Under the pieces are notes generated by a model. The model saw nothing but the letters and a program-made list of their open reading frames with translations. It was not told the origin of the DNA and ran no database searches. Below are positions 4,739-9,196 of a stretch of DNA of 64,000 nucleotides, one piece after another. The stretch's first letter is position 1; each line of letters begins with the position of its first letter. The stretch is from NCBI GenBank assembly GCA_029959365.1, contig JASCOA010000002.1:1-64000 (forward strand), written 5' to 3'. The translations under genes were made by a program, and so were the position numbers. The DNA is from Microbacteriaceae bacterium PS02343. Lineage in GTDB: Bacteria; Actinomycetota; Actinomycetes; Actinomycetales; Microbacteriaceae.

Positions 4739-6430
4739 TCAATCGGCGAGCACGCTCCGCACGGCCTCGTAGGCAGGCGTCGGCTCTCCGCCGTCGAACA
4801 GGAGGTCGTGGCCCTGCTGCAGGCCGCCGTCGTCGTCGATCCACCAGTCGTACCGGTCGTCGACGCCCCACGTCGTGTAGGAGACGCAGGCCTCGGAGCG
4901 GAGGCAGGCGGCGAGGATCGTGGCGTACTGCTCCGCTTGGACGTCCCGGCCCTCGCTCCGGGTGACGTCGTTCTCGGAGATGCGGGCGATGAGCCCTGCG
5001 CGCTCGACGTTGCCGAACGTCGTCGCGAGATCGTCGGCCGAGATGGCGTCGGTGTCGAGGTGGTAGACGTGCGCCTGGAGGCCCACGCCGTCGATGTGCC
5101 CGCCCCGCTCGTTCGTGTCGAGCGCGAACCGGAGCAGGGCGTCCTGACGCGGGCCCGGCACGTCGGCGCCGTTCTCGTTGATGAACTGCCGGATGTCCGG
5201 GTCCGCCTCATGCACCGCCTGCGAGACGGCCACCGGGTACGTCGGCCCGAAGACCCGGTGCCAGACGTTCTCCTGCAGGCTGGTGCCCTGATCGACGTCG
5301 AACGGTTCGTTGACCACATCGAGCGAATCGAGCCGACCCCGGAAGTGCGTGACGACGGTCGTCACGTAGTCGAGCAGGATCTCGGCGCTGGCTCGGCGCT
5401 CGTCGTCGGTGCCGCTGGGGAGCTCCTGCATCCAGCGAGGCATCGCCTCGGTGAAGGCGACGGTGTGGCCGTGCACGGCGATCCCCTTCCGTGCTGCGAG
5501 GTCGAGGAGCGCATCCGCCTCCTCGAAGGTGTACTCGCCTCGCCGCGGGGAGAGCGCCTGCGGCTTCATGGCGTTCTCGGGGGTGAGCGAGCCGAAGTTC
5601 CCCACGAAGTTCGTCGCGTACTGCGGGTCCGAGACGAGCGGGCCGAGTGCGACCGCCGCGCCGATCGGGAAGCCCGGGCGGGCGCGGGCGGCGAGAGCCT
5701 GCAGACCGTCCGGAGCCGGCTCCGCACCGGCTGCGGCCGGCCCTGCGACGGCCAGGGTCGCACCGGCCGGTGCGGCTGCGCTGAGCGCATCGACCGTGAA
5801 GGACCCCTGCTCGCTCGAGAGCCCCAGCCAGAGCTCGCCGGAGCCGAAGACGTCGCCGAGGCGCAGGGAGGACACCGTCTCGCCACCGCTGGCCACCTCG
5901 AGCCGGTCGCCCGATCGGCGCACGGTGAGCTCCGCCCCTGGGTCGTGGAGCGTGACCTGCTCCTCCTGCGCAGGCTCAGGGTCGGTCGCATCGGCGCCGT
6001 CGAGCAGAGCGATCCGGAGGTCGTCGCCGCGCAGCGTGAGCCGGAGCCCCGGGGGTTCGATGCGGAACTCGTCGGCGATCACCGGCGGGCTGCCGTAGAC
6101 GGCCAGGGTGGCGTCCGCGGTCACGTCGACGAACGAGGCGCTGAGCGCGAAGTCCCCCGCAGCCGACAGGTGCGCTCCGGCGAGGTTGACCGGAGGGTTC
6201 GGTCGGCCGCCTGCACCGTCCTGTTCGACGATACGGCTCCCGGTCGCAGCCACCCGCAGGCCATCGCCCTCGGCGACGATTCCAGCGACGCGCCGCCAGT
6301 CCTGGCGCAGCAGGTCGATGACGGTGCCGCGCTCCGATGGCGAGTCCGTCGAGCCGCAGCCGGTGAGGGCGAGGAGGCCGGCGGTCGCCGCGCTCACGAC
6401 ACGCCATCGCCGAGCGGTCAGGGCCGTCAC
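4739..6430 (-). CDS. GH10 endo-xylanase-like lipoprotein
   Basis: Secreted, lipid-anchored glycosidase of 563 residues. It has a signal peptide with lipobox (LTGC, Cys25), an N-terminal beta-rich region (about 35-225) resembling a concanavalin-like carbohydrate-binding sandwich, then a GH10 barrel (about 240-560). GH10 marks are TPENAMKPQ, HGHT, DVVNEP (acid/base Glu) and ISENDV, where Glu takes the nucleophile position of the usual ITELD. The HGHTLVWH block reads HGHTVAFT, so the conserved Trp and His are missing, which could change the substrate. The likely activity is hydrolysis of beta-1,4-xylan or a related glycan at the cell surface. The GTG start at 6430 has only a weak GGAAGG ten bases upstream. 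Confidence 0.85.
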   Translation of the reverse strand: MTALTARRWRVVSAATAGLLALTGCGSTDSPSERGTVIDLLRQDWRRVAGIVAEGDGLRVAATGSRIVEQDGAGGRPNPPVNLAGAHLSAAGDFALSASFVDVTADATLAVYGSPPVIADEFRIEPPGLRLTLRGDDLRIALLDGADATDPEPAQEEQVTLHDPGAELTVRRSGDRLEVASGGETVSSLRLGDVFGSGELWLGLSSEQGSFTVDALSAAAPAGATLAVAGPAAAGAEPAPDGLQALAARARPGFPIGAAVALGPLVSDPQYATNFVGNFGSLTPENAMKPQALSPRRGEYTFEEADALLDLAARKGIAVHGHTVAFTEAMPRWMQELPSGTDDERRASAEILLDYVTTVVTHFRGRLDSLDVVNEPFDVDQGTSLQENVWHRVFGPTYPVAVSQAVHEADPDIRQFINENGADVPGPRQDALLRFALDTNERGGHIDGVGLQAHVYHLDTDAISADDLATTFGNVERAGLIARISENDVTRSEGRDVQAEQYATILAACLRSEACVSYTTWGVDDRYDWWIDDDGGLQQGHDLLFDGGEPTPAYEAVRSVLAD

Positions 6431-6718
6431 GAGCGACGGCCTTCCAGCGAGGGACGGTCGGGCCCGCCGTCGAAGCGGTGCGCAGGACGATCGTCGCGAC
6501 CCGATCGAGCTCGGGCGGGGTTCCCGCCGGGCCCGGGTCCGCGCGTCAGGGCGGCGGCGTCGCCGCCGGTGCCGGATTCGTCGCGCTGCGTCACGCGGGA
6601 GACGCTATCCCGCGCTCGCGCGGCTCGCGCACATGCTGCGCACGGCGCGTCCCGCGGCCGACGAGGCAGGGCGCCGCGGTGGCGACGGCAGCCCACAGCG
6701 AACTCGAAGGGAATCGGC
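6431..6718. other. Intergenic region between GH10 and hsp20
   Basis: No convincing gene is seen here. A 55-codon minus-strand frame (6594-6427) ends in a GTGA overlap with the GH10 start but lacks a ribosome binding site and has low-complexity Gly/Arg/Pro composition. The promoter elements of hsp20 begin at 6719. Confidence 0.5.
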
Positions 6719-6748
6719 TTGGCACTCTCCGATGCCGAGTGCTAATTT
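6719..6748 (+). promoter_or_regulatory. CIRCE element over the hsp20 promoter
   Basis: TTGGCACTC (6719-6727), nine bases, GAGTGCTAA (6737-6745). This matches the HrcA operator consensus TTAGCACTC-N9-GAGTGCTAA with one substitution. The left arm supplies the -35 box TTGGCA, and TAATTT (6743-6748), 18 bases on, is the -10 box. HrcA binding would therefore cover the whole promoter. Confidence 0.9.
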
Positions 6749-6761
6749 TCTGCTCATCGAA

Positions 6762-6782
6762 CCTGAGTCACCGCGACTCAGG
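6762..6782 (+). promoter_or_regulatory. HAIR element (HspR site) downstream of hsp20 promoter
   Basis: CCTGAGT (6762-6768), seven bases, ACTCAGG (6776-6782). The HspR consensus is CTTGAGT-N7-ACTCAAG; spacing is exact and each arm differs by one compensating base. It lies just downstream of the predicted transcription start, a typical place for a roadblock or repressor site. Confidence 0.82.
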
Positions 6783-6805
6783 TCTAGTCGACGAGGAGGA
6801 TGACC

Positions 6806-7225
6806 ATGTCCCTGACCTACGACCCCTTCCGCGAGATGGAGCGGCTCTTCTCGACCGCCGTCGGCGCCCGCGGCCCGCAGCCGATGCCGATCGACCTCTT
6901 CCGCGACGGCGATCACTACGTGCTCAGCGCCGACCTGCCGGGCATCGACCCGGGCTCGGTCGACATCGACGTGGACGGCCAGCAGCTCACCATCCGCGCC
7001 GAGCGCAGCATCGCCGCCACCGAGGGCGTGAAGTGGCTCTCGCGCGAGCGCTCCGGCGGCAGCTTCCTGCGCCAGTTCACGCTCGGCCAGGGCCTCGACA
7101 CCGAGGCGATCGCCGCGACCTACAACGAGGGCGTGCTGACGATCACCATCCCGGTGAGCGAGAAGGCCAAGCCCCGCAAGATCGCCGTGACCAGCGAGGC
7201 GAACGCGCGGGCGATCGACGCCTGA
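6806..7225 (+). CDS. hsp20: Small heat-shock protein Hsp20
   Basis: ATP-independent holdase chaperone of 139 residues that keeps unfolding proteins soluble in the cytoplasm. The alpha-crystallin domain spans about residues 25-125: an IDLFRDGDHYVLSADLPGIDPGSVDIDVDG start, ERS..EGVKWLSRER loop, and the closing GVLTITIPVSEKAKPRKI with the I-x-I-like tail. ATG 6806 is preferred over ATG 6800 because GAGGAGG (6793-6799) then has a six-base spacer. The promoter has both CIRCE and HAIR operators, so HrcA and HspR are both expected to repress it outside heat stress. A strong hairpin follows the gene. Confidence 0.95.
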   Translation: MSLTYDPFREMERLFSTAVGARGPQPMPIDLFRDGDHYVLSADLPGIDPGSVDIDVDGQQLTIRAERSIAATEGVKWLSRERSGGSFLRQFTLGQGLDTEAIAATYNEGVLTITIPVSEKAKPRKIAVTSEANARAIDA

Positions 7226-7315: not shown

Positions 7316-7954
7316 TCAGCGCAGCTCGCGGTCCCGGTAGAGCCGCGCAGCGACGACGGCTCCGGCGATGATGCCGATCAGCCCGATGGCGAACCCGATC
7401 GCCGCGAGGACCGGGATCGGCGCCGGGGGCGCCACGTTCGAGGTGATGAGGCCGGTCTCCTGGCCGATCCAGGCCAGACCGGCGATGACCAGCGCAGGGG
7501 CGTAGGCCATCAGCCGACCGCGGGAGTAGCCGATGCGGAAGAAGACGGGCAGCTGCAGGGCCACGGCCAGGCCGACGAGGGCGAAGGCGCCGGCGTTCAC
7601 GAGCAGGAGGATCTGCGGGTCGGGCGAGCCGCCTCGCGCGAGCGCGACGAGGAGCGTCGAGGCGTTCGCGACGATCACCGCGATCGCGTTCAGCGCGACG
7701 ATCGCGAGCGTGCGCCCGACGACGATGCTGGTGCGGGAGACCGGCAGGGTGCCGTAGAGGGTGTCGAGGCGCCCCCGCTCGTCGCCGAGGAACGGCGTCG
7801 GCACGAGCAGCATGGTCACGATGGCGGAGGCGGCGATCGCCATGCCCGGCACCGGGAGCACGACGCCGATCACCACGATGAAGGCGAGCGGCAGCAGGGT
7901 CTGGGTGCGGGGCAGCCACGACTGCAGGTCGAAGCGCGCGAAGACGAGGCTCAT
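7316..7954 (-). CDS. ABC-2 type transporter permease
   Basis: Membrane subunit of an ABC exporter, 212 residues with six hydrophobic segments. The PFLGDERGRLDTLYGTLPVSRTSIVVGR loop after the second segment is characteristic of the ABC-2 permeases found beside YtrA-type regulators (PF13346-like). The start ATG overlaps the stop of the ATPase gene (ATGA, 7951-7954). Together with the GntR gene it forms a three-gene cassette. Such systems commonly respond to cell-envelope stress or export peptides and lipids; the substrate here is unknown. Confidence 0.88.
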   Translation of the reverse strand: MSLVFARFDLQSWLPRTQTLLPLAFIVVIGVVLPVPGMAIAASAIVTMLLVPTPFLGDERGRLDTLYGTLPVSRTSIVVGRTLAIVALNAIAVIVANASTLLVALARGGSPDPQILLLVNAGAFALVGLAVALQLPVFFRIGYSRGRLMAYAPALVIAGLAWIGQETGLITSNVAPPAPIPVLAAIGFAIGLIGIIAGAVVAARLYRDRELR

Positions 7955-8826
7955 GCTGCGACCCCCTGGTGCTCGGCGCCGAGGTGGATGACGATGTCGT
8001 CGATGCTGGCGGTGTCGATCACGGTACCGGCGTCGAACACCGCCGAGTCCTCCATCCGCACGAGCGCGGTCCAGCCCGCGCCGCTGCGCTGCACGCCCAG
8101 GACGTGCTCGCGCGGCGGCGAGCCGGCGCCTCGGGCGATCGCGAAGGTCTCGGTCGCCTCGTGCAGCGGACCGCGGTAGGCCACGCGTCCGCCGACGAGC
8201 ACCAGCAGATCATCCGCCAGCGCGTCGAGGTCGGTGGTGATGTGCGTCGAGAAGAGCACGGCGTGGTCGGGGTCGATCATGAAGTCCCGGATGACGTCGC
8301 CGATCTGGCGCCGGGAGGCCGGGTCGAGGCCGCTGGACGGCTCGTCCAGGATGAGGAGCTCCGGACGCTGCGCGAGCGCGGCGGCGAGCGTCAGCTTCAC
8401 GCCCTGCCCTCGGGAGAGCTCGCCGACGCGCTGCGTCCGCGGCACGCCCAGCCGGTCGAGCATGTCGCGCAGGAGCGCGTCGTCCCACTCGGCGTAGAAG
8501 GGGGCGAGCCGGCGTCCGATGCTGTCGACGCGCCACTCCGGTGCCGCGGTCGGCTGATCGAGCACGATCCCGATGCGCGCGAGCGCCTCCGGCGACCCCG
8601 GCGCGCATCCGAAGGTGCGCACGGTGCCGGCGTCCGGTGCGACCAGGCCGAGCAGCGCCCGGATGGCCGTGGTCTTGCCGGCGCCGTTCGGGCCGACCAT
8701 GCCGACCACGCCGCCGCGGGGCACCGAGAAGGAGACGTCCGAGATCCGGAACCCCTCGCGCTGGATGCCGAGCGCTTCGACCCGCACGGGGTCGTGCGCA
8801 GCCGTTCGTATCGTGTCGTCAGTCAT
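7951..8826 (-). CDS. ABC transporter ATP-binding protein
   Basis: Nucleotide-binding subunit of 291 residues driving the neighbouring permease. Walker A GPNGAGKT (about 42-49), signature LSRGQGVKLTLAAAL, Walker B LLILDEPSSGLDP and the switch His in FSTHI are all intact. The last 80 residues form a small extra domain (EHVLGVQRSGAGWTALVRMEDS) usual in this exporter class. ATG 8826 follows GGAGG by four bases and overlaps the end of the GntR gene by eight bases, so the three genes are co-translated. Confidence 0.92.
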   Translation of the reverse strand: MTDDTIRTAAHDPVRVEALGIQREGFRISDVSFSVPRGGVVGMVGPNGAGKTTAIRALLGLVAPDAGTVRTFGCAPGSPEALARIGIVLDQPTAAPEWRVDSIGRRLAPFYAEWDDALLRDMLDRLGVPRTQRVGELSRGQGVKLTLAAALAQRPELLILDEPSSGLDPASRRQIGDVIRDFMIDPDHAVLFSTHITTDLDALADDLLVLVGGRVAYRGPLHEATETFAIARGAGSPPREHVLGVQRSGAGWTALVRMEDSAVFDAGTVIDTASIDDIVIHLGAEHQGVAA

Positions 8827-9196
8827 GAGCCCTCCAGGTCTCATCGATGCGGCGATGGATGTCGTCAGCGGTCAGTCCGGCGTGGCGCGCCGCCGTCAGC
8901 AGCACCTGCAGGGCCGCGTCGACCTGCCCCTCGAGGGCGGCCGCAGCGGTCACCGCGTCGACCTCGCGCACGACGAAGCCGCGCCCGTGCTCGTTGCGCA
9001 CGAGGCCTTCGGCCACGAGGTCGTTGTAGGCGCGGGTGACCGTGATGACGCTCACCCGGAGCTCGGCCGCCAGCTGCCGCAGGGACGGCAGCGTCGCGCC
9101 CGCCGGCGGTTCGCCGGACAGGATCGCCGAGCGCACCTGCGCCTTGATCTGCTGGTAGATCGGCGAGGCCGAATCCGACGAGATGACGAGGCGCAC
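8819..9196 (-). CDS. GntR-family regulator, YtrA subfamily
   Basis: A 125-residue repressor. The winged helix occupies residues 8-75 (SPIYQQIKAQVRSAILSGEPPAGATLPSLRQLAAELRVSVITVTRAYNDLVAEGLV). A short helical dimerisation tail replaces the large effector domain of other GntR proteins, which defines the YtrA group. GTG 9196 is six bases after GGAGT. It is the first gene of the ABC operon and probably represses it through the inverted repeat at 9205-9232. Ligand and inducer are unknown. Confidence 0.92.
   Translation of the reverse strand: MRLVISSDSASPIYQQIKAQVRSAILSGEPPAGATLPSLRQLAAELRVSVITVTRAYNDLVAEGLVRNEHGRGFVVREVDAVTAAAALEGQVDAALQVLLTAARHAGLTADDIHRRIDETWRAHD

Follow-up and report, generated by a model that had tools for sequence, protein, structure and literature searches.

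Tandem CIRCE and HAIR operators before hsp20 in Microbacteriaceae bacterium PS02343: a conserved family trait and a predicted dual control by HrcA and HspR

The window, i.e. the whole stretch of 64,000 nucleotides that was analysed, contains one small heat-shock gene, hsp20. This gene gives the only Hsp20 match found in the PS02343 genome. No hsp20 match was obtained for G001, the sole other genome of the genus in the search for relatives. ATG 6806 is the best start codon and is located behind a GAGGAGG sequence, with an alternative in-frame ATG at position 6800. The proteins of relatives align with the gene product from residue 1 on. The gene stands alone between genes of the opposite strand; a glycosyl hydrolase of the GH10 family and an ABC transporter pair are its neighbours (4739–6430 and 7316–8844, both minus strand). 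The features assigned to the gene and its upstream region are the following.

6698..6703, plus strand: lone half GCGAAC, near the position of the full ClgR-like box of many relatives; no recognisable ClgR-like box
6719..6745, plus strand: CIRCE operator (predicted HrcA site), one mismatch to the consensus, kept upstream of hsp20 in relatives
6719..6724, plus strand: putative -35 hexamer TTGGCA at the left end of CIRCE, from comparison, with an 18-nucleotide spacer to TAAnnT
6743..6748, plus strand: putative -10 hexamer TAATTT, made up of the right end of CIRCE and three further bases, from comparison across relatives
6755..6757, plus strand: predicted transcription start, about A6756, from the distance to the -10 hexamer and the A before HAIR in relatives
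6762..6782, plus strand: HAIR operator (predicted HspR site), about +7 to +27, with perfect 7-bp arms around N7, kept in relatives
6793..6799, plus strand: ribosome-binding sequence GAGGAGG, read directly
6806..7225, plus strand: hsp20, small heat-shock protein of 139 amino acids (PF00011, E 1.2e-23)

The CIRCE operator of hsp20 reads TTGGCACTC-TCCGATGCC-GAGTGCTAA. The consensus used here is the inverted repeat TTAGCACTC-N9-GAGTGCTAA, from which the operator deviates at a single position. With up to three mismatches allowed, it is the only match in the 64-kb window, and none is expected by chance (0.00; shuffled sequences give no match). The near-perfect CIRCE reported by the first-pass annotation is thus confirmed. 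The same threshold applied to the whole genome (3.42 Mb in 239 contigs) yields two places only, hsp20 and groEL.

The HAIR operator has the letters CCTGAGT-CACCGCG-ACTCAGG. Compared to CTTGAGT-N7-ACTCAAG there are two mismatches, which compensate each other, and all seven arm positions pair. The exact seven-base spacing that had been described for this element is correct, and its arms are perfectly complementary. Matches with up to three mismatches are expected 0.52 times per 64 kb, and a HAIR taken by itself is therefore weak evidence. The hsp20 HAIR is significant because of its position and its conservation. At most two mismatches are found at only four places in the genome, among them clpB (perfect) and hsp20.

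The reading of these sites as targets of two repressors had been made dependent on the presence of hspR in the genome. hspR is present (NF047375, 137 bits with a cut-off of 105) in the last position of a dnaK-grpE-dnaJ-hspR cluster or operon, and hrcA is encoded as well (PF01628; TIGR00331, 279 bits). clpB is preceded by the perfect HAIR, dnaK by a HAIR with three mismatches and groEL by the other CIRCE (within three mismatches). The HrcA and HspR regulons of PS02343 correspond to those usual in actinobacteria. Of the sites identified in the genome, CIRCE and HAIR coincide at hsp20 only, where the two regulons meet. Both regulators are found in every tandem-bearing genome of a 58-genome test. 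Their presence is not discriminating, since nearly all tested relatives have hspR and hrcA, including those with one or neither operator. Two adjacent CIRCE-like repeats are observed before groEL of PS02343 (L019, C183, positions 1501–1570).

The pair of CIRCE and HAIR before hsp20 is a genuine, widespread and conserved trait of the family with a typical spacing. A flexible tandem pattern (CIRCE core, gap of 6–30 bases, HAIR core) is present in 117 of 400 Microbacteriaceae genomes and 38 of 85 genera, counts that are not independent because relatives share ancestry. The reversed pattern, which served as control, is present in none of the 400 genomes. All 30 loci fetched from this search are located upstream of hsp20. 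Genera with the pair include Microbacterium, Agromyces, Leucobacter, Microcella and Subtercola, and it is also present in Brachybacterium and one Arthrobacter. An order-wide search adds five genomes of two other families, again with the pair before hsp20, and a sample of the phylum adds a match in one distant genome only, before groES (identified by eye). Furthermore, 106 hsp20 promoters were chosen independently of the tandem pattern; 66 of them have both operators, 18 have HAIR only, 18 have CIRCE only and four have neither. The nearest matches in control stretches of equal length behind hsp20 have five mismatches to CIRCE and three to HAIR.

Some related arrangements were observed as well. 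One genome (G098, L185 and L186) has two hsp20 copies with the same tandem operators on each. The opposite order is present at hsp20 of Bowdeniella nasicola (L129), with HAIR 43 bp upstream of CIRCE. In a genome of the same phylum outside the class (G611, L164, about positions 1500–1600), the groES/groEL promoter has two CIRCEs and an adjacent HAIR-like TGAGC-N7-GCTCA, possibly an independent dual arrangement.

The distance from the start of CIRCE to the start of HAIR is 37 bp in 59 of 89 distinct promoters and 43 bp in PS02343. Because this spacing is unusual, a strict tandem pattern with exactly 43 bp matches the PS02343 window only. The gap between the two operators amounts to 16 bp compared to the usual 10 bp. 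The earlier statement that dual control is rarely this compact does not hold, as the arrangement is common in Microbacteriaceae and the gap in PS02343 is wider than usual. Start spacings of 34, 36–39, 41–43 and 48 bp all occur across the promoters; a strict helical phasing between CIRCE and HAIR is not supported.

The HAIR of PS02343 might be a remnant, now in decay, of the arrangement found in the family, with CIRCE as the only functional operator. Its location 6 bp further off than usual would fit this explanation, as would its two consensus mismatches, of which the change in column 2 is nearly unique in the set of 89 promoters. However, the two changes compensate each other and leave the 7-bp arms perfect, and the TGAG/CTCA core is unaltered. 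Two further tandem genomes (G186 and G428) also have CCTGAGT with the same N7, and spacings of 41–43 bp are found in several genera. A remnant is thus unlikely, and a HAIR that acts together with CIRCE is preferred.

According to the first-pass annotation, CIRCE covers the -35 and -10 boxes and HAIR lies just past the expected start. Comparison across relatives supports this placement. Among 84 hsp20 promoters chosen independently of the tandem pattern, CIRCE column 3 is G in 54, columns 25–26 are TA (T in 83, A in all 84) and the third base past CIRCE is T in 71. The groEL CIRCEs of PS02343, read in gene direction, have C at the column-3 position. The asymmetry of the left and right ends of CIRCE and the conserved T fit a promoter that is built into the operator. 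Probably, CIRCE doubles as the core promoter of hsp20 (TTGGCA-18-TAAnnT). This reading is based on comparison, since a strict sigma-70 scan calls no promoter upstream of hsp20 in PS02343. In 71 of the 89 promoters an A directly precedes HAIR, and this A is likely the transcription start. The comparison suggests that HAIR is located at or just after the start.

Heat control might also be exerted mainly by an alternative sigma factor such as SigH, with HrcA and HspR in a minor role. Heat-shock genes of Corynebacterium glutamicum are under SigH together with HspR, HrcA and ClgR (PMC3489674), and GGGAAT at 6709–6714 resembles a SigH -35 element. Inspection by eye revealed no suitable -10 partner at the right distance, and GGGAAT is not conserved in the aligned upstream columns, whereas the TAAnnT -10 hexamer is. 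SigH as the main control is therefore very unlikely. The least probable explanation is an RNA hairpin in the 5' leader (an RNA thermometer or stability element) in place of a DNA operator: the palindrome at 6762–6782 would be transcribed and form a stable stem (-12.4 kcal/mol), but this stem leaves the ribosome-binding site at 6793–6799 uncovered, the motif is also found before clpB and dnaK, and letters are kept beyond pairing, with T at HAIR columns 2 and 3 in 87 and 88 of the 89 promoters, respectively, a set in which the TGAG/CTCA core belonged to the selection for many rows.

Upstream of CIRCE, many relatives have an additional element. The palindrome TTCGC-N5-GCGAA (up to one mismatch) is located 18–37 bp before CIRCE in 52 of the 108 hsp20 promoters that have CIRCE (e.g. 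L032, L094 and L155), compared to 0.65 expected from shuffled sequences. It closely resembles the published ClgR motif TNCGCT-N3-GGCGNAA (PMC9004370), the printed right half of which is one base longer. Binding of ClgR to this palindrome in relatives may be regarded as a lead. The hsp20 promoter of PS02343 has no ClgR-like box and shows three mismatches to TTCGC-N5-GCGAA. In the whole PS02343 genome, irrespective of position, the pattern has 58 matches at one mismatch versus 13 for a control.

The operators, their conservation and the putative promoter argue for a two-repressor control of hsp20, which is very probable: HrcA would act on the core promoter and HspR at the start, linked to GroEL and DnaK, respectively. 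The activity of HrcA depends on GroEL in other bacteria. For actinobacteria, HspR with DnaK as co-repressor is reported (PMC8223512). In unstressed cells both repressors would be seated on the hsp20 promoter. HrcA bound to CIRCE, which overlaps the putative -35 and -10 hexamers, would shut out RNA polymerase, and HspR bound to HAIR at the transcription start would prevent initiation at the same promoter or its early clearance. With HrcA over the core promoter and HspR over the start, either repressor would thus obstruct the same polymerase. Misfolded protein would draw off GroEL and DnaK, HrcA and HspR would leave the promoter and the small chaperone would be made. Two versions of this logic are conceivable. 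Either one repressor alone is enough, and hsp20 would be switched on only once both are gone, or full repression requires the two together, which is what has been reported for Campylobacter.

In Helicobacter and Campylobacter, HspR and HrcA are established as joint regulators of the groESL and hrcA promoters. HspR is bound upstream there and HrcA at the core promoter, and the two proteins bind cooperatively in Campylobacter and independently in Helicobacter (PMC7464140). The predicted arrangement in PS02343 resembles Pgro and Phrc of Helicobacter pylori and Campylobacter jejuni in that a single chaperone promoter is the target of both repressors, with HrcA on the core (PMC7464140). The targets differ, being groESL and hrcA-grpE-dnaK in these two species and hsp20 in PS02343. 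Furthermore, the HspR site of Campylobacter Pgro is located upstream of the core promoter, whereas HAIR of PS02343 follows 16 bp downstream of CIRCE, i.e. the order is reversed. The arrangements differ in layout but are of the same kind.

As predicted for PS02343, small heat-shock genes belong to the HspR regulon in Mycobacterium tuberculosis (acr2, of the Hsp20 family; PMC2687793) and Deinococcus radiodurans (hsp20; PMC8223512), and the passages concerned mention no HrcA site. The hsp20 relatives fetched from Mycobacterium/Mycolicibacterium have CIRCE without HAIR. Streptomyces and Bifidobacterium are comparable to PS02343 with respect to CIRCE on groE genes, HAIR on dnaK and clpB, and the presence of both regulators. 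In these genera, however, the HrcA and HspR regulons are separate, with no reported overlap at hsp20. The hsp20 gene of B. breve is without a known motif and hsp18 of Streptomyces albus is controlled by RheA (the source text misnames the species).

The open-access literature searched yielded no description of an hsp20 promoter in which HAIR lies downstream of a CIRCE embedded in the promoter. The tandem is apparently a little-described version of the known dual HspR/HrcA switch and is ordinary within Microbacteriaceae. The present analysis adds the conservation of the tandem across the family together with its typical spacing, the probable second role of CIRCE as the promoter and the presence of a ClgR-like box in many relatives.

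The hsp20 promoter provides a simple, conserved test case from non-model actinobacteria for the way in which two distinct chaperone sensors are combined at a single promoter. Natural variants are available with CIRCE only, with HAIR only, with both operators and with both plus a ClgR-like box, at spacings from 34 to 48 bp. A broader view, held tentatively and with somewhat less than even confidence, is that hsp20 of Microbacteriaceae and of some neighbouring families may be the meeting point of three circuits of protein quality control, namely HrcA (state of GroEL), HspR (state of DnaK) and, in about half of the promoters, the Clp activator ClgR, all acting on a compact promoter the core of which is CIRCE. 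If this is true, hsp20 would report the joint failure of several chaperone systems and not that of a single one.
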